A stretch of 26,655 nt of DNA from a virus, in IMG/VR virus record IMGVR_UViG_3300028800_000283, positions 1 to 26,655 of that record, one strand, 5' to 3'. Under the pieces are notes generated by a model. That model did no database searches, had not been told where the DNA came from, and worked only from the letters and a program-made list of their open reading frames with translations. This document shows, one piece after another, positions 4,677-22,939 of this stretch. Numbering within the stretch: position 1 is the stretch's first letter; every line of letters starts with the position of its first letter. Position numbers and translations under genes: made by a program.

Positions 4677-5500
4677 GATTTTTGGTAATCAGAAAGGATG
4701 TCGCCCGTGTTCCAAGAATTAACTGTCGTGATACTTGCACCGACTATCGTATAATCCACGGTCGGAGTGAACCGTTGTCCGATACCAAAGAGTTGGACGG
4801 TTCCCACGACGGGAGTATTTGCGAGGGTAAAGGATGTCCCCGAACCCGCTACTACTTCATTATATACGAAAGTCGCGGATGTTGCACTACCCGACCCGCC
4901 GCCGTGCATCAGTTCCTCCACCCGATACTTGATGCCGTCCTTCATAAAGGTTGAAGCGTTTTTAATATGCGAGATGTCCAAAGGCTTCTCCTTTTTGAAT
5001 CGTTTTACGATGGTATCAAAAATCTCGTCCATATCGGGGGATTCTCCGTCCTCTCCATCCTCGCCATCAATCCCGTCCCGACCATGATTTCCGTCCACGC
5101 CATCCCGTCCGTCGATTCCATCACGTCCATCCTTGCCGTCAAGCCCTTTTTCGCCGTCAAAATAATCCTTTCCCTTTATGGGACGGAAAGATTCAACGTG
5201 GGACTTGAGAAAATCGGCCAATCTCTGTATTTCCTCTGGGGTGAAGTAGTCTTTACCTTTTGCGGGGGTATCGCCTTTTTCGCCCTTATCTCCTTTATGG
5301 GCTTCTTTGATCGCCGCGATATCTCTCAAATGACTCGTTTGCTCCCTTAATTCCATCAATTTAAGGGCTTCTAGCGGGCTATTTTCGTTCTTTTGGGCAA
5401 TGGACTTCAAAAGACCCGTCTGCTCTCTTATTTCAAGCACCCGGAGCATTTCGGGGTCGTCGTGGAACAGGTCTTGGAGTGTTTGCTTTTTAGCGTCCAA
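4673..5500 (-). CDS. Collagen-like tail fibre or appendage protein
   Basis: 275 residues from a TTG at 5500. The N-terminal part repeats itself: LEIREQTGLLKSIAQ (22-36) and MELREQTSHLRDIAA (49-63). GKDYF occurs twice (82-86, 110-114). Residues about 116-154 are 13 uninterrupted Gly-X-Y triplets rich in Asp (GKDGRDGIDGRDGVDG...), which would form a collagen triple helix; phage fibres use such stalks. The C-terminal 80 residues are a small beta-rich domain with a T/G linker. It is the first gene behind a promoter at 5521-5550. The TTG follows an in-frame TAA and lies 6 bases after an ACGGGC element, with no Shine-Dalgarno. The next ATG is at residue 18, so the start is not certain. Confidence 0.7.
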   Translation of the reverse strand: MDAKKQTLQDLFHDDPEMLRVLEIREQTGLLKSIAQKNENSPLEALKLMELREQTSHLRDIAAIKEAHKGDKGEKGDTPAKGKDYFTPEEIQRLADFLKSHVESFRPIKGKDYFDGEKGLDGKDGRDGIDGRDGVDGNHGRDGIDGEDGEDGESPDMDEIFDTIVKRFKKEKPLDISHIKNASTFMKDGIKYRVEELMHGGGSGSATSATFVYNEVVAGSGTSFTLANTPVVGTVQLFGIGQRFTPTVDYTIVGASITTVNSWNTGDILSDYQKS

Positions 5501-5506
5501 TTAAAA

Positions 5507-5550
5507 GCCCGTATAATAGCATTATACACCATTTGACAAGACTAGGGCAA
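5507..5550 (-). promoter_or_regulatory. Promoter for the appendage/lysis operon, with ACGGGC element
   Basis: On the minus strand TTGCCC (5550-5545), an 18-base spacer and TATAAT (5526-5521) are followed 8 bases later by ACGGGC (5512-5507). The collagen-like gene starts 6 bases further on, so the mRNA leader would be very short. The -35 region overlaps that of the divergent plus-strand promoter. Confidence 0.6.
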
Positions 5551-5562
5551 GAGGTATATTAT
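5533..5562 (+). promoter_or_regulatory. Sigma70-type promoter of the plus-strand RNA
   Basis: A perfect TTGACA (5533-5538) is followed at 16 bases by TATATT (5555-5560) or at 18 bases by TATTAT (5557-5562). Transcription would start near 5567-5569, just before the first hairpin of the structured region. It is the only full-consensus -35 box I found next to a -10 box in the window, and it faces away from all structural genes. Confidence 0.65.
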
Positions 5563-5566
5563 TAAA

Positions 5567-5956
5567 AAGTAGTTGAAAATCGAATATCCCGAAAGGGAGG
5601 CCTCGCTGCGAAGATACAAGACCGTTGTGGTCTCGCAACTTAGCAGGGAAACTTGTTAAGGGCGAGGCCAGAGCGGTTTTTAATTACCTAAAACATCCTG
5701 CGGGTTAGGTGGCTTACTATCAGCCTCCCGTGGTTGCCTATTGAATGATAGACTTGGCTTCAACCTTATACAAAAAGTGAACCAAGCGGTGCTAGATCGT
5801 TTTCTCTGGCGATACTAGACGAACCCCCGACCCATATACGGTTATCGGAGCGAGAGTAGAGAATGCGGCGAATCGAGAAAAAACGATTACGGGCGTCGCT
5901 TAAAACAGGTCGAATACGGCTCTTAGCCTTCCCTTGCCAAAAAGTTAAGTGAACCA
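5567..5956 (+). ncRNA. Structured RNA of unknown family (about 390 nt)
   Basis: No convincing gene lies in this stretch. On the plus strand it folds densely. Hairpin 5587-5598 is TCCC-GAAA-GGGA. Directly adjoining it, an 8-bp perfect stem (5599-5606 with 5662-5669) closes a three-way junction that holds hairpin 5607-5637 (TGCGA/TCGCA and GACC/GGTC) and hairpin 5639-5660 (9 bp with two G-U pairs and a GAAA tetraloop). Only one unpaired base separates the arms. Further stems are 5686-5691/5705-5710, 5717-5722/5746-5751, 5792-5799/5810-5818 (one bulge) and 5865-5875/5884-5899. G-U pairs and GNRA loops fit the plus strand only. It follows a TTGACA promoter. I could not match it to tmRNA, RNase P RNA, tRNA or group I or II introns. 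It could also be a long structured leader of the two ORFs behind it. Confidence 0.6.
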
Positions 5957-5957
5957 A
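5775..5957 (+). repeat. 11-base direct repeat in the RNA region
   Basis: AAGTGAACCAA occurs at 5775-5785 and 5947-5957, 172 bases apart. The second copy touches the ATG of the following small ORF. It may be a protein or RNA binding site, a duplication scar or the edges of a module inserted here. Confidence 0.4.
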
Positions 5958-6148
5958 TGGAAACAACAGATAAAAGAAGAATAGAAATTGAGCAAGAGCT
6001 AGATTCGATTATTACTAAAGCGAAAAAAGAAAACGCTGAATTAATTTCGGCGGCAAAGGAAAGTAATTCCGATAAAATATCCTCCGCTTGCTCGTGGTTT
6101 ACGAAAGATATTTCTAGCGCATGGCTGGAAAGAAGAACATATACTTAA
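5957..6148 (+). CDS. Small charged protein of unknown function, plus strand
   Basis: 63 residues, the first ORF after the structured RNA. The first 45 residues are highly charged and helical (METTDKRRIEIEQELDSIIT...), probably a short coiled coil; the end (SWFTKDISSAWLERRTYT) has three aromatic positions. There is no clear ribosome binding site. It overlaps the next plus-strand ORF by 28 bases. Base composition is more AT-rich than the surrounding structural genes, which suggests separate origin. I do not recognise it. That it lies downstream of a promoter and is not opposite another gene argues that it is real. Confidence 0.45.
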   Translation: METTDKRRIEIEQELDSIITKAKKENAELISAAKESNSDKISSACSWFTKDISSAWLERRTYT

Positions 6149-6321
6149 ATTTAAGAAATCGTTGTATAAATTTTCTAAATAATAAAACAATGATAAATAT
6201 AATATATATAGTTATAGTCGCTTTTGCGGCAATCTGGCTAACGTGCTGGATTATTAGCCTTATTCGGATGTGGACGTATCGCCCGAGCCTGAAGCAGTAC
6301 CAAGAAGATCCTTTACCGTAG
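6121..6321 (+). CDS. Small single-pass membrane protein, plus strand
   Basis: 66 residues. A basic N-terminus (MAGKKNIYLNLRNRCINFLN) is followed by one strong hydrophobic segment at about residues 25-48 (INIIYIVIVAFAAIWLTCWI and onward) and a short polar tail. An internal ATG at 6190 could give a 43-residue form that begins just before the membrane helix. The 3' end overlaps the convergent minus-strand gene by 62 bases. The DNA is very AT-rich (ATAAATATAATATATATAG around 6192-6210). It could be a holin-like or superinfection-type moron product, but nothing specific shows this. Confidence 0.45.
   Translation: MAGKKNIYLNLRNRCINFLNNKTMINIIYIVIVAFAAIWLTCWIISLIRMWTYRPSLKQYQEDPLP
6236..6259 (-). 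terminator. Small hairpin at the end of the fibre/ejection operon
   Basis: GGCTAA (6236-6241) and TTAGCC (6254-6259) form a 6-bp stem with a 12-base loop immediately after the stop at 6260. No U-run follows on either strand, so it is at best a weak or factor-dependent end point between the convergent units. Confidence 0.25.
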
Positions 6322-7798
6322 AAGCTCCAGCTTTGCCAAGTAATTCAATACCTTGTCCGACTTTATAAATCGTCTGTCCACCAATAGTCCCAATGGGTAC
6401 GGTAGCGGCCTCCATTATATTCTTTAACGTTGTTCCTGTTCCGCCCTTAATAGCACCAGTCATCGCTTTTCTTCCGAGTGCGGAAATGCCATGAAGGTTT
6501 CCATAATCTATGTATGCCTGTTTTACGTTATCGCCAAGAGAATTATAGATAGTTTGACGAGACATTCCCGCGAGCGTATTACGTACGTCATTTAATGCAC
6601 CGGCAATGGGTTGTCCTTTATAAGCTTTTTCTGGCACAAACTCAGCCCATCCTTCTTTATATTTTTGAAGTTGAGCTAGGCTTATATCTTTTACTCCAGC
6701 AAAATCTTCCTTGATTGAATTAAGAGCATTTTTAAGAATCCCTAAACGCGTTGGGTCGTTTGTTTCACTTGTAATCTTTTGTTCGGCTTGATTTAGAAAG
6801 TCTGGAATATTTACCTTGGTATCTGACTGTTCAAGAGCTGGTTTTATCAAGCCACTCCATAGTTTTGTTTGTGCCTTTTTTGCTTGTACGCCCATGCTGG
6901 ATTCAGTACCCATAATTCCTTTATCAAAAGCTGCACTTGCGGCGGTACTAGGAGCTTTACCACTTCCTATATCAAGAACATTTTTAACTCTTTCAAGTAG
7001 TGGAGTAGATGCTTTATATGCCTGTAATAATCCAGCCTCTGCATCAGATTTTGGAATAAACATCTTTGCTACACCCTCTCCAGCTGATTTGAGAACATTT
7101 CCTATTGGAGCTGCTAATCCTCCCGCTACAGCACCTGCGGCAGTCGCAGTCGGATCACCACCTGTTTGAGCTGCTGTTACTGCGCCCGCAGATGTTGCCC
7201 CTACCGCACTATGCCCTAAAACTTTTAATATGCCACTCAATGCTTCCCCTGCTTTCGGGCCAAACTGTTCTGCAAACTTTGCCGTATCTACTGCTTTATT
7301 AATTGCGCCAGTCGCATCTGCCTCTGCTCCACCGGGGATGAAAAACTGTGCTATGTCTCCTCCTATTTTTCCTACTGTTTCTCCCGTGTTGGATGGTTGT
7401 GCAGTTGCCTGAAGATTTTTAATGGATTGTGCAGCTCCACCTTGTTCATTAGTTTTCAAATATCCAAGCCCGGGGATATTACTCATAGCATTGCCGATAT
7501 TCTTTCCGATGTTCGCTACACCAGCAACAGTTCCGATGGCAGATTTCGCAAGTCCCGTACCTACATCGTTAATAGTTCCTGTTACGGGGTTTGAGTTTAA
7601 CTTATCTAATAGTGATGGTGTTTGAGTAGACTGACTAGGTTGAGGAGGATTCTGCAAAGCTTGCTGGGCAAGTTGTGTTCTCCTGTCCTGTGTCTGTTGG
7701 ACGGCTGTCGAAGGCGGAGTAACCGAAGTAGTCTGCGGAGTGTTTGGGATTCCTAGTGCATTGTTCGCCGCCTGAATCTGTTGAAGTGATAGTGCCAT
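6260..7798 (-). CDS. Candidate internal virion (ejection) protein, Gly/Ala-rich
   Basis: 512 residues. The N-terminal 65 residues are disordered (Q/P/T-rich). Residues about 75-250 hold alternating Gly/Ala-rich amphipathic and hydrophobic segments (TGLAKSAIGTVAGVANIGKN; AVAGGLAAPIGNVLKSAGEG), typical of proteins that insert in membranes during DNA ejection. Residues 260-460 are helical and charged. A second Gly-rich hydrophobic part lies near the C-terminus (VPIGTIGGQTIYKVGQG). It is the last gene of the unit that begins with the fibre at 11891 and starts as TAA-A-ATG after the 754-residue protein. No lytic transglycosylase motif is visible. The role is inferred from composition and position. 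Confidence 0.45.
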   Translation of the reverse strand: MALSLQQIQAANNALGIPNTPQTTSVTPPSTAVQQTQDRRTQLAQQALQNPPQPSQSTQTPSLLDKLNSNPVTGTINDVGTGLAKSAIGTVAGVANIGKNIGNAMSNIPGLGYLKTNEQGGAAQSIKNLQATAQPSNTGETVGKIGGDIAQFFIPGGAEADATGAINKAVDTAKFAEQFGPKAGEALSGILKVLGHSAVGATSAGAVTAAQTGGDPTATAAGAVAGGLAAPIGNVLKSAGEGVAKMFIPKSDAEAGLLQAYKASTPLLERVKNVLDIGSGKAPSTAASAAFDKGIMGTESSMGVQAKKAQTKLWSGLIKPALEQSDTKVNIPDFLNQAEQKITSETNDPTRLGILKNALNSIKEDFAGVKDISLAQLQKYKEGWAEFVPEKAYKGQPIAGALNDVRNTLAGMSRQTIYNSLGDNVKQAYIDYGNLHGISALGRKAMTGAIKGGTGTTLKNIMEAATVPIGTIGGQTIYKVGQGIELLGKAGASTVKDLLGTASGSGDTSTSE

Positions 7799-11943: not shown

Positions 11944-13846
11944 CCGATTCTTCGGGGGCTCCTCTCGCATTCAGACCGAAGGCAATGAGTTGGAACTGCT
12001 GATTGATTCCATTAATGGAAAATGATACCGAACTCTCGAAGAAATTAGTATTCCCAAATGTCGGTTCCCAACGAAATTTCGGCGGCAAACCCTGAATGGA
12101 CGAACTCATACCTCCTCCAAGTTTTTGCTTTCCCAAAGAATCTTCTCCGAGGGGCCCTAATTCGGCGGGAATGCAGACATACTGTTTATTCGCCCCTGAC
12201 AGCATAAAAGTCTTCTCGGTTGCACATCCGTCCAATTCATACGTAACTCCCGCAGAAAGGGTCGTATTGGCAGAAATATATCCCTCCACATAGAGCGCTG
12301 TCGCCGATTTAAGGATGTGCCGAGAACCGTACTGTTCGTAGGAAAACACCATATCGCAAGGAATAGGATAGCCGGAGAAACCGGGATAAACACGATCCGC
12401 ATACCCCGTGAATAACTGATAAGATTCCGAAGTATTGTAGCCGTGTCCGTAGAGTTGCCCTCCGACAACAAAGAACCGTGAAACGGGGATGGTTAGCGGC
12501 GCGTCCCAGGTCTGGGAGGTCAGGGAATATGAAAGCACCAGTCCTTCCTTCGGCACAGCGACGTAGATATAGTATCGGTAGTAAAATATGGAACCGTCCG
12601 TGAAATCGTAGGAATCAATATCCAACTTGATGGGGTCGCTGATGTTCTGCACTTGCGCCTGGGTCAGATACGTCGGTAAAACCCCCATCATATCAATCGT
12701 CGTTTCGTTTGAGGCGGAAATGATGTAGTTCTTCATGTTGGAAACCATCGCCTGACTTAAGGCTCCCTGCTGTTTGCCTATTTTCAAAGGCAGCATCCCG
12801 AATGTTTCATAGGGATTTCCCGATGCGTCCGCTCCTGCGGTGAAAATCGTGGTATACCATAAATCCTGCCCTGCGGAAACATACATCGTTGCCTGCGTTC
12901 CTGTCCCTTGAACGATAAAAGCGGTTGTATTCTGGTCTAACACTCCCGAACCGCCTTCGCCCGGCTGACGAGGCGTGGAGTGGGAGTAGTCGGTATAGGA
13001 ATTGACCTTAGAAAGCCAAATTGCGGCGTTTTTTGTAGAGCCAAGATATATCTGGTTGTTGAGAACCGAGATTACGTTAGGGCTGAATCCCGTTGGAGGA
13101 CCGGTGAAAGTAGACGTAGCCGTTACAATGACTGATTGATGAGCCACCGCTCCTACAGTGATACCCGAAGCATCGGGAGTTACTCCCGTTAATGTCGTCG
13201 TTCCTTCGCCGCCCGTATAGGTAAAGACCGAAGAACCAACCACGATCGAGCGGGGAGACGTAGAAGCATAGAATCCTAAATCAGTCCATGTGGTTGTTCC
13301 GTTGGTCGTGATAGAAGCCGAGGTAGAAGTATTGATAGTCGTGACCGCGCCGTTCCACTCATAGATATTCCCATTTCCATTGACTCCTAAAGCAACACGT
13401 TCGGATTCATTGGTATTCCAAAAGCCCGTAAAGTTAAAATTGCTGTCCGTAAGTCCAGTAACGAGATCAGTCCATGTTACCGTTCCGTCGGATGCAACAT
13501 AGCGAAACTGCATCTTTCCATCGGAACCCGTATCATTAAAACCCGTCCGAATATGGGATTCCAACCCTGCGCCATTTATAAAATCAAAAGCTCCCAGAAT
13601 AGGAGCGGCTATCGTTGAAGTAGCGCCGTCCAACGAATACCCTTTTCTTATTTGAATACGCTCCGATACGTTCGTTTGGACGTTCTTTGAACCTTTAATC
13701 AAAACACCAGGGGCAAGGTTCGTAATATCCTCACGGTTTCGGTATCCATATTTATAACTGGATACCAAAGAAAACTCAGCAGAACGTGCGGCAATAAGCC
13801 GACGTTCCATCGCATATCCTTGCCCATGTCCCGCGGGAGCTGCCAT
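11927..13846 (-). CDS. Tail nozzle / tail tip candidate, beta-propeller-like
   Basis: 639 residues, almost all beta. After a helical N-terminus come repeated blades with W/Y-G-N signatures (ALGVNGNGNIYEWNG, NVISVLNNQIYLGSTKNAAI, MYVSAGQDLWYTTIF, YYRYYIYVAVPKEGLVLSYS, FFVVGGQLYGHG). N-terminal DITNLAPGVLIKGSKNV and QIRKGY resemble the start of phage nozzle or head-stabilising proteins (P22 gp10 and T7 gp12 functional class). Position after the connector candidate and before the fibre fits a nozzle. It starts by a TAATG one-base overlap with the preceding small gene. Family naming is inference; a beta-rich structural role is clear. Confidence 0.55.
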   Translation of the reverse strand: MAAPAGHGQGYAMERRLIAARSAEFSLVSSYKYGYRNREDITNLAPGVLIKGSKNVQTNVSERIQIRKGYSLDGATSTIAAPILGAFDFINGAGLESHIRTGFNDTGSDGKMQFRYVASDGTVTWTDLVTGLTDSNFNFTGFWNTNESERVALGVNGNGNIYEWNGAVTTINTSTSASITTNGTTTWTDLGFYASTSPRSIVVGSSVFTYTGGEGTTTLTGVTPDASGITVGAVAHQSVIVTATSTFTGPPTGFSPNVISVLNNQIYLGSTKNAAIWLSKVNSYTDYSHSTPRQPGEGGSGVLDQNTTAFIVQGTGTQATMYVSAGQDLWYTTIFTAGADASGNPYETFGMLPLKIGKQQGALSQAMVSNMKNYIISASNETTIDMMGVLPTYLTQAQVQNISDPIKLDIDSYDFTDGSIFYYRYYIYVAVPKEGLVLSYSLTSQTWDAPLTIPVSRFFVVGGQLYGHGYNTSESYQLFTGYADRVYPGFSGYPIPCDMVFSYEQYGSRHILKSATALYVEGYISANTTLSAGVTYELDGCATEKTFMLSGANKQYVCIPAELGPLGEDSLGKQKLGGGMSSSIQGLPPKFRWEPTFGNTNFFESSVSFSINGINQQFQLIAFGLNARGAPEESVYIRD

Positions 13847-17042: not shown

Positions 17043-17978
17043 CTATCCTTGCGTCGTACCATCCGAACCGACTGAACCGGCGTAATCCGCGCAGAAGTAA
17101 GCCTCTCTAAAGTTCGCCTGATAGCGATAGGTAAGGTTGTTGGAATACCTCCAATCCGTAAGAGCCGTTTCGAGGCCCTGACGAATAAGACGGGTGAAAC
17201 CATGTCTGCGGGCGAGCAAGAACCATGCGGTATCCGAACCGCCAGCTGCGGCACCCAACCAGTGTGAAGTCCATACCGTAATTCCGAGTGAAGAACGATA
17301 GACGTTCACGTTGTTGTTGCCAGAATCTGCGATCAACGCCGAGTCCGTGATTTCACGAGCGTGCTTCCAAAGTGCCGGAGGCACCAAGAGCGTCGCCGGA
17401 GCGGAACCACGAATCACACCAGACTGGTCTTTCTGCTCAACTAAGCTCACGAGAGCCGTATTGAGCGAATTAGGAGTCAAAGAGGTCGTGATGTAGTTCG
17501 ACTGCGTGCCGCCGCCGATGAGCGGGTGAGCGGTATTGAAGATGCTCACGCCGTCAGCGGTCAAAGCCGTGGTGAAGCCGTTGCGGAACAACGCGAACGC
17601 ATTGTAGTCCTGAGTGTCTTTCGCCTTCAAAGCGAAATCCTTAACATCCTCAGCCCAGACGCCGTGCATATTGTCATCAAAGAGCTGCTTCGAGATGTCG
17701 ATGCCCTGCGCATAGGTGACGATGGCCGTGGTCTGTTTGTTGGTGACGTGAGGCGTCGAAAGGGGTACTGCACCCGTTTCGCCTACCACCGGGTAAAGAC
17801 CCGAACCCTTATTGATTGACTGAATCCAAGCGGCATGAGTAGTATCCTGCGGCTTGAATACTTCTGCGGTCGTGGCGTGTGCAACGCCAGGGAACGCTTC
17901 ATCGTAGTCAAACTGCTGGAAGAATACCGCATCAAGCTCGGTCTGGACGATACTGAAATTTTGAGCTTCGGTAAACAT
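17043..17978 (-). CDS. Major capsid protein, HK97-fold (Mu gpT-like)
   Basis: 311 residues. DGVSIFNTAHPLIGGG (about residues 142-157) is the FNTAHPL-type motif of Mu-like major head subunits. The order of an N-terminal helix region, TYAQGIDISKQLFDD, helical AEDVKDFALKAKDTQDYNAF and the C-terminal LTYRYQANFREAYFCADYAG fits the family. Length is about that of Mu gpT. It follows the scaffold-like and decoration-like genes. The mRNA leader in front (17979-18044) lacks a Shine-Dalgarno but has four ACGGG elements and a nested hairpin. Function is fairly certain. Confidence 0.8.
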   Translation of the reverse strand: MFTEAQNFSIVQTELDAVFFQQFDYDEAFPGVAHATTAEVFKPQDTTHAAWIQSINKGSGLYPVVGETGAVPLSTPHVTNKQTTAIVTYAQGIDISKQLFDDNMHGVWAEDVKDFALKAKDTQDYNAFALFRNGFTTALTADGVSIFNTAHPLIGGGTQSNYITTSLTPNSLNTALVSLVEQKDQSGVIRGSAPATLLVPPALWKHAREITDSALIADSGNNNVNVYRSSLGITVWTSHWLGAAAGGSDTAWFLLARRHGFTRLIRQGLETALTDWRYSNNLTYRYQANFREAYFCADYAGSVGSDGTTQG

Positions 17979-19060: not shown

Positions 19061-19240
19061 GTTTTAAGCCGTTTTGAAAGGTTTGGCCAACCTGATGGTT
19101 TAGTAAAAATCCCCGGACGAGGGGGATTTACTAAAGCATCTGATATTGTTCAACCCACGGGCGCAGGTTTATTATGTCAGATGCTTGGGTAAATCTCCCA
19201 AACATCGCCCGTGAAGTTGTCAAAAAACTTCTATAACCGA
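19061..19240 (-). promoter_or_regulatory. Structured leader of the head operon, attenuator-like
   Basis: On the minus strand, from the promoter on: hairpin 19231-19213 (GAAGTT/AACTTC), ACGGGC at 19212-19207, a 24-codon ORF from 19205, a 10-bp perfect inverted repeat AAGCATCTGA (19186-19177 with 19143-19134) inside that ORF, then tandem stops, then a hairpin 19132-19102 (AGTAAATCCCC pairing with GGGGATTTTTACT, two extra bases). A short peptide over one hairpin followed by a second strong hairpin is the layout of an attenuator. No proper U-run follows the last stem, so termination is uncertain. Confidence 0.5.
19131..19205 (-). CDS. Possible 24-residue leader peptide
   Basis: ATG at 19205 lies one base after an ACGGGC element, in the leader of the head operon. 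It encodes MFGRFTQASDIINLRPWVEQ and four more residues, then TAG TAA. It spans the 10-bp inverted repeat and ends just before the second hairpin. It could be a leader peptide whose translation sets which hairpin forms, a small functional peptide or chance. Confidence 0.35.
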   Translation of the reverse strand: MFGRFTQASDIINLRPWVEQYQML

Positions 19241-20916: not shown

Positions 20917-22939
20917 GCCCGGCAACAGGAGATTGAGAACCTACCTTGTTGAGCGGGTTTTTACCCGTCATCGCACCCAATGGGCTATTGCCAGCGTTCG
21001 GCATCTGGCCTGGTTGCCCTGGTGCCGTCGTAGGAACAGGTTGCTGAGGATTCGTGCCTTGTCCCATGCCTGGAGTAGCTTGTTTTGCCAAGTACTTATC
21101 AGGATCTGATTTTGTGCGCGGGTCAGTTTCCAAGAGAATCTTTGCCGTGGCTTCAGGGTCAAACATCCCCGGCGGGGCGGCTACCATTCGGTCGAACGTT
21201 TCCAACCCATACGCTCTCTCTAAATCCTCCGAACGAGGGTTCAAAATGTCAGCCGAGATAGTCGTCATATAGCTTAAGTCACGGAACAGTTCAGGATTCA
21301 CCCTTGAAATCTCAAGTTTCTTATCTTCTTCCTCGCCCAAAAGCTCAAAGGACTTGTTCATGTATTCATCCAATGTGATATTTTCGGGCATATTGGAATC
21401 GAAACGAATCTGCCGAGGGTTACCAACACCTTTCGCCTGAGCTTTCAAAGCAAAGGTCTTGTAGGTCAATTCGGGGTCGCCGTCAATCTGCATGACATCG
21501 GGCATCGTCAAATACTGCACGATATCTCCCACGCGGAGCTTGCCGAAATCTCTCACGTGCTTGGCAATCATCTGCAAGAACAATCCAAGCACCGTGTTGG
21601 CGTTCTGTTCCATGACGGATATTTCATACGCGGTTTGGCTTGAACCATTCGGCTGCGAAGCGGACTGTTGGTCGCCTGCGGATTCCGTGATTGACCGCTC
21701 GACTTCCTGGAGCGTGACCAGAGCGTCTTTCAAATCAGCACCGACATTGATTGCCCGAAGGTCTGCGTTCGGGTCTGACAACGTAGTAACCGCGCCGGGA
21801 ACGATGACATCCGAAGCAATGATTTCCCCGCCGATATTGACCATCGGCTTAAAGATTGAAAGATACGTCCCGTCAATGAACATCTGGTACAGCGTGTTGA
21901 TGACATCGGCGTCATATTGGAGTTTGAACGCCAAATCCTTGTAGTAAAAGAACCGCGAATTGATGAGTTCATAGCCGAACTTATCGAACGGATACAGTTT
22001 ATCATTCCTCGGATTCGGATTGTCGTGTTCCGTCAACATTATCCCGTTCACCATGATAATCTTCAAATCCATGTTCTTGTTCCAGTAGATGATTTCCTCC
22101 ACATCTTCCTGGCGCATATTCGGGTCGTAAACGTAATAGAACGTCCGATTCGCATCATCGTAGATAGTTTGGACGCCTGGCTTTACATACTTAAAGTTCT
22201 CATAGATGCCATTGTACTTTCCTTGCGCGGCGGAATAGGAATAAACTTTGCGCCACATCACCCAGCCCTGCTTCTGAATGTCCGGCTCATAGATGTTCTC
22301 GATATAAAACTGGTCTACAGGAACGACGCAATCCATGAACTCTGGGTATGCTTCGTCACGAATACGTTTCTCTTTCCACGTTCCGTCGGAATTGCGCTCC
22401 ACCTTGACCTGACGCGTTACCTCGCCATATTCCGTGTACCCAATGGACGCGGGGCTTTTAAGGGCTTCAATGACGCGCTGAAGGGCAATAAAGGGATAAT
22501 TAGACACGTCGCCCGACCACTCCATAAGCTGTTCCATCACTCTTGCGGCGTCCTCTTGGCTCTCGGAATCCTCGTTATAGGCAAAGATTTTAGGGAATAA
22601 GAGTCTAGCGGTCGCGTGAGCCGCGATACTCATGCACTTGTTTCGGACAATCGGCCGTAATGCTCTCGATCTCCACGCGGTCTGTGGGCTGCCTTCCCAC
22701 GCTTCGCCGTTGTTCGGCTGATAGGTATTCCATTCCATCTGGTCGTACTGGTCGCGGAGAATCAAGGACAAGTCGTTGAACTCAACCCTTGGGGTATACA
22801 TAGTGACCGTCGAAAGCACGAATTGACGGAGAATCATCGCCCTAACTTCAGCTTCTTCAGGACTTGGGTTGTAATCAGCAATCGTATCCTGAATCTGGCC
22901 CTGCTTATCTACCGAAGCACGCAAAAGCACGGCTTGCAC
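20903..22939 (-). CDS. Portal protein (podovirus / P22-like size)
   Basis: 678 residues from GTG at 22939. The body reads as a portal: an N-terminal helical and clip region, LILRDQYDQMEWNTYQ, VVPVDQFYIENIYEPDI, then stem helices (DALVTLQEVERSITESAGDQ; TAYEISVMEQNANTVLGLFL) and a Pro/Gln/Gly-rich C-terminal tail (about 620-678), which is usual for portals with a flexible end. Size is close to the 725 residues of P22 portal. It lies after terminase. The frame is open a further 14 codons upstream to an ATT at 22981 that sits 6 bases after an ACGGGT element, and the added SIVKVTDVDQKKQ looks coding, so the true start may be 22981. Confidence 0.75.
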   Translation of the reverse strand: MQAVLLRASVDKQGQIQDTIADYNPSPEEAEVRAMILRQFVLSTVTMYTPRVEFNDLSLILRDQYDQMEWNTYQPNNGEAWEGSPQTAWRSRALRPIVRNKCMSIAAHATARLLFPKIFAYNEDSESQEDAARVMEQLMEWSGDVSNYPFIALQRVIEALKSPASIGYTEYGEVTRQVKVERNSDGTWKEKRIRDEAYPEFMDCVVPVDQFYIENIYEPDIQKQGWVMWRKVYSYSAAQGKYNGIYENFKYVKPGVQTIYDDANRTFYYVYDPNMRQEDVEEIIYWNKNMDLKIIMVNGIMLTEHDNPNPRNDKLYPFDKFGYELINSRFFYYKDLAFKLQYDADVINTLYQMFIDGTYLSIFKPMVNIGGEIIASDVIVPGAVTTLSDPNADLRAINVGADLKDALVTLQEVERSITESAGDQQSASQPNGSSQTAYEISVMEQNANTVLGLFLQMIAKHVRDFGKLRVGDIVQYLTMPDVMQIDGDPELTYKTFALKAQAKGVGNPRQIRFDSNMPENITLDEYMNKSFELLGEEEDKKLEISRVNPELFRDLSYMTTISADILNPRSEDLERAYGLETFDRMVAAPPGMFDPEATAKILLETDPRTKSDPDKYLAKQATPGMGQGTNPQQPVPTTAPGQPGQMPNAGNSPLGAMTGKNPLNKVGSQSPVAGLASQ

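Follow-up and report, generated by a model that had tools for sequence, protein, structure and literature searches.

The window analysed here spans the whole of the IMG/VR virus record IMGVR_UViG_3300028800_000283 (26,655 bp), whose tail, head and terminase block lies on the minus strand. Between the minus-strand genes ending at 6260 and starting at 5500 there are 759 bp without a strong gene. The AT and GC skews flip over about 5500-6250, as is expected of a plus-strand transcription unit. The plus strand of this segment contains a possible ORF of 63 aa (5957-6148) that would belong to the inserted unit and whose codon support is weak (0.06, compared with 0.06-0.47 for the main genes of the phage), and a possible 43-aa hydrophobic ORF (6190-6321, within the ORF 6121-6321) with a codon score of -0.11. 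No family was found for the former and no significant one for the latter, and the small downstream ORFs used as queries retrieved no relatives. A scan of the window for tRNA and tmRNA genes found none. Elsewhere in the window, positions 602-1096 carry a gene for a recombination endonuclease VII (PF02945), probably of the homing type, in which a weak NUMOD3 motif was seen.

The tail gene adjoining the segment (6260-7798) has relatives in a contig of a Patescibacteria MAG and in a contig of a Clostridiales MAG, so that a CPR (Patescibacteria) host is possible. In two related loci, L006 and L018, the neighbouring gene directly precedes a gene with collagen-type repeats. In a third, L019, an ORF situated in the same gene junction (5804-6523) resembles an HNH-type endonuclease by eye, and the gene junction thus seems to be an insertion hotspot. 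The segment of the window therefore looks like inserted cargo, and we infer a moron-like insertion between two minus-strand tail genes.

A sigma-70-type promoter is found on the plus strand at 5533-5562. The consensus TTGACA (5533-5538) is combined with TATATT at 5555-5560 (spacer of 16) or with TATTAT at 5557-5562 (spacer of 18), giving 11 of 12 consensus matches, in accordance with the promoter recognized in the first-pass annotation. No other plus-strand site of the window reaches 11 of 12 matches, and shuffled sequences are expected to yield 0.6 such sites on both strands. Transcription would start near 5567.

Folding of the record in 442 sliding windows (mean z -0.13, sd 1.3) gave its strongest RNA-fold outlier on the plus strand from 5521 onwards (z -6.3). 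Other strongly negative windows were observed at 19081-19240 (minus strand, z -6.0), 13681-13840 (minus strand, z -4.9) and 21961-22120 (plus strand, z -4.6). At the locus, significant structure is limited to about 120 nt directly after the promoter (5567-5690). G-U pairs favour the plus strand, the z for 5567-5695 being -6.85 there versus -4.34 on the minus strand, which agrees with the strand previously assigned on the basis of these pairs. Structure extending over about 390 nt with at least four further stems, as proposed in the first-pass annotation, is not borne out: the remaining non-coding stretch (5691-5956) is no more structured than chance, 5681-5830 (z -0.65) and 5820-5956 (z +1.22) being at the level of shuffled sequences.

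The structured core can adopt two folds. In the one that we call fold A, a 5' hairpin CCC-GAAA-GGG (5587-5598) abuts an 8-bp helix P1 (5599-5606/5662-5669), which closes a three-way junction (5599-5669). The arms of the junction are P2 (5608-5636) and P3 (5639-5647/5652-5660), the latter being a 9-bp hairpin with a GAAA loop (5639-5660). The hairpin stacked on P1, the junction and the GAAA-capped arm had already been described from the sequence, and this description is correct base by base. Folding of 5567-5695 revealed in addition a 14-bp closing helix, P0 (5569-5582/5674-5687), which had been missed and which joins the 5' end of the RNA to the strand carrying the U-run.

Fold B, overlooked in the earlier description, is a 27-bp rod (5618-5680) composed of the helices 5618-5626/5672-5680, 5628-5636/5662-5670 and 5639-5647/5652-5660, with a z of -10.25 for 5613-5681. 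It is mutually exclusive with P1 and P0, and the competition rests on a duplicated strand. The 3' strand of P1, GCGAGGCC (5662-5669), pairs either with the 5' strand of P1, GGCCUCGC (5599-5606), to form the junction, or with GGUCUCGC (5629-5636), a near-copy of this 5' strand, to form the rod. In the same way, the U-run strand has as partner either the 5' end of the RNA (P0) or 5618-5626 (rod). The U-rich tract itself, UUUUUAAUU (5677-5685), follows the CGG end of the rod as a terminator-like tail; it is short and no ORF lies close behind it. A simple terminator pattern scan did not list the rod, because its stem contains mismatches. The computed energies of the two folds are similar for 5575-5695 (-50.2 for the rod versus -48.1 for the junction). 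In computed equilibria, which do not describe kinetics, the rod makes up 99.8% of the ensemble for a transcript ending at 5681 and the junction 98.6% for a transcript ending at 5695, and the rod prevails again from 5900 onwards. What looks like a tidy three-way junction in the bare sequence can thus be one of two competing folds.

We folded the gaps in contigs of related phages and so came upon a second copy of this RNA at 17590-17703 of the contig IMGVR_UViG_3300025289_000070 (L030); this search gave many GC-rich false leads until the presence of a promoter was required. A covariance model, R1, was then made, after L030 had been seen, from the window sequence alone and the junction structure given by the window's own fold. 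With filters off, R1 matches L030 at 17596-17701 with 22.3 bits (E = 6.6e-4 in 89 kb, or about 0.002 across the 277 kb searched unfiltered), the next-best score in these 277 kb of relatives being 12.5 bits; with default filters the match is missed. In L030 a promoter TTGACT-TATAAT precedes a hairpin CCGC-UAAU-GCGG, the counterpart of the GAAA hairpin. P1 is formed by GGGACAAG/CUUGUCCC and encloses two arms, and the rod AAAGUUCCC.../...GGGAAUUUU is followed by U7 and by the ATG of a 90-aa ORF, whose Shine-Dalgarno sequence AGGGA sits inside the rod. The two copies thus differ in sequence but have in common the promoter, the 5' hairpin, a P1 of 8 bp, the junction and the rod, and the duplicated-strand design is shared with unrelated letters. 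P0 has no clear counterpart in L030. The placement of the RNA between promoter and gene is seen in L030, while in the window the next ORF, with its weak coding signal, lies 275 nt further on. The ORF of L030 (17704-17976), whose 3' end overlaps a strong terminator-like hairpin, has no confident family.

The alignment of the two copies shows that 14 of the 30 pairs of the junction are changed on both sides and that 96% of cells pair, compared with 40-50% in a control with slid partners; as the alignment was fitted to the junction, these both-side counts lean towards it. The covariation called for by the earlier reading is seen against one divergent copy. The outer helix of the rod was absent from the model used for the alignment; nevertheless, all nine of its pairs are in register in both copies, three of them with both sides changed. 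A shuffle control for this helix alone (68/500) is weak with two sequences, so that the helix counts as support and not as proof. We also combined hairpin, P1, duplicated strand, rod and U-run into a joint descriptor. At or below -0.40 kcal/nt and with a U-rich tail, it retrieved the window and L030 loci only, and nothing at that threshold in six shuffles of 273 kb. The likeness of the two copies may be due either to homology or to convergence.

The RNA corresponds to no catalogued family. In agreement with the earlier remark that it resembled no familiar class, none of the 4227 models of Rfam 15 matched at gathering score in the window or related loci. At E<=10, two chance-level matches were obtained for 5400-6300 of the window, and nothing beyond chance for L030. 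Searches with blastn in phages and plasmids gave nothing useful, and an exact-pattern scan of IMG/VR with the hairpin and P1 gave no match. The L030 ORF as query retrieved its own contig and one contig with identical DNA in the region, and no others. No third copy was present among 80 terminase relatives, the best score of unfiltered searches in 378 kb of these being 14.6 bits, which we took as noise. For the phylum of the Patescibacteria MAG, R2 gave no accepted copy in 380 genomes; R1 gave none in 295 genomes around this MAG, and none was detected in 398 genomes of the phylum of the Clostridiales MAG. These genome searches (1,073 genomes) used strict filters, with which weak members could be missed. 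One R2 match (L038, E = 0.04) was rejected, since it is at chance level for 380 genomes and the descriptor finds no such element there. The number of distinct copies is thus two, and more than 1,100 genomes and phage records yielded no further one. A different structured stretch was observed in the related record L007 (IMGVR_UViG_3300041409_001217), downstream of the same tail gene and on the strand opposite to it (7225-7790, minus strand, 566 nt, z -5.2), and is followed by an Abi_alpha (PF14337) gene. It had no Rfam match at gathering score or beyond chance at E<=10, and was discarded as a homologue of the window RNA because neither RNA model matched it. This stretch could be a large structured RNA in its own right.

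Taken as a whole, the RNA is real, compact and bistable, and it would belong to a known kind, that of terminator/antiterminator leaders. As to its function, our tentative reading is that it may act as an attenuator. It would lead a moron-like transcription unit, placed on the plus strand between the two minus-strand tail genes, with the rod as presumed intrinsic terminator and the junction as presumed antiterminator. The junction would form first while the RNA emerges, and it would depend on a signal (a metabolite, a protein, an RNA or the speed of transcription) whether the polymerase terminates near 5680. In L030 the rod would also hide the Shine-Dalgarno sequence of the ORF whose start codon directly follows the U-run. 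Several observations speak for this reading: the strong promoter upstream, the competing folds of similar energy and the stability of the rod; the R1 match in L030 with its both-side changes and outer rod pairs; and the layout of promoter, RNA, U7 and ORF in L030, the joint descriptor and the skew reversal. The two folds exclude each other while sharing a strand, and both are supported by the second copy; the rod (z -10.2) is followed by UUUUUAAUU in the window and by UUUUUUU in L030. Against it stand the existence of two copies only, the short U-run of the window with no ORF close behind, the weak coding signal of the downstream ORFs, the unclear P0 of L030 and the weak shuffle control for the outer helix of the rod.

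The same features allow other readings. An independent small RNA of some 115 nt, running from 5567 to about 5682 and terminated by the rod, is conceivable but in our view doubtful; its targets in trans would be RNA or protein of the phage or the host, and the junction would be its transient or mature form. Such an RNA would account for the strong promoter of its own, for the terminator-like rod with its U-run and for the lack of an ORF close behind in the window. In L030, however, a ribosome site and an ATG follow immediately on the same RNA. Moreover, pairing with the downstream region is no better than in shuffled controls. The longest stretches complementary to phage mRNAs, of 18 and 16 nt with G-U pairs included, fall within genes, and we estimate them to be near chance. 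The segment could also act as a palindrome at the level of DNA or RNA processing, for instance as a recombination or replication site, an RNase III site or the end of a mobile element. The minus strand is indeed structured as well (z -5.3), and the junction between the same two tail genes receives insertions such as the possible HNH-type ORF; G-U pairs and GAAA loops nevertheless favour a plus-strand RNA, and both copies have a promoter directly upstream and the same design with changes on both sides, which makes a palindrome unlikely. We hold processive antitermination of the HK022 put type, in which the nascent junction would bind RNA polymerase and cause later terminators to be ignored, to be quite unlikely. 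Like putL, the RNA is structured, compact, two-armed and placed right behind a phage promoter, but put RNAs consist of two adjacent stem-loops over about 70 nt (PMC9378689), and a triple-helix region is part of their description. They have neither an enclosing 8-bp helix nor a competing rod, whereas here about 100-120 nt form either a closed three-way junction or a rod.

Long terminator hairpins are common, and with two copies only one might suspect a coincidence of ordinary terminators behind promoters. The E value of R1 over 277 kb and the failure of any shuffle to satisfy the joint descriptor make this very improbable; nor does having a rod entail a duplicated P1 strand beside a 5' hairpin. 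The large ornate non-coding RNA of about 390 nt envisaged in the first-pass annotation appears the least probable reading. Its location in a phage, its GNRA loops and the dense pairing of the first 120 nt speak for it; ROOL, GOLLD and OLE are likewise structured non-coding RNAs of unassigned function, the first two also encoded by phages. These RNAs are hundreds of nucleotides long, however, and ROOL and GOLLD often lie beside tRNA islands (PMC12286853). The window RNA is structured over about 120 nt only and has two competing folds; its last 270 nt are at shuffle level, it has no neighbouring tRNAs, the relative exists for the 120-nt core only, and the Rfam covariance models of ROOL, GOLLD and OLE find no match in the window. 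The bistable design points to a switching leader or a short RNA rather than to a rigid compact particle.

The attenuators and riboswitch-type leaders, to which our preferred reading assigns the RNA, resemble it in being close to the promoter, in having a strand common to two mutually exclusive helices, and in that one fold ends in a U-run, with the ORF directly behind in L030. It differs from them by the lack of a recognised aptamer or protein-binding site and of an Rfam match, by the absence of a close ORF in the window, and by the extra 5' hairpin abutting P1. Among phage RNAs, the C4 antisense RNA of P1 and P7 and the CI RNA of P4 also have repeated strands complementary to a shared partner. 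An antisense RNA of this type was considered and rejected: the best downstream duplex (-46.9) is close to the shuffled mean (-46.6), and there was no Rfam match.

We regard it as rather unlikely that the RNA founds a new class of small bistable switch on the inserted cargo of phages that may infect Patescibacteria, in which a three-way junction, abutted by a 5' hairpin and with its closing strand duplicated inside the RNA, would compete with a terminator rod in response to a signal. The strand-exchange design is so simple that a single in vitro transcription assay could test it. Should the switch prove real, terminator/antiterminator leaders would have gained an unnamed family, from a group of phages that has been little studied, and it would demonstrate that cargo lodged among late genes can come with a conditional RNA gate of its own.
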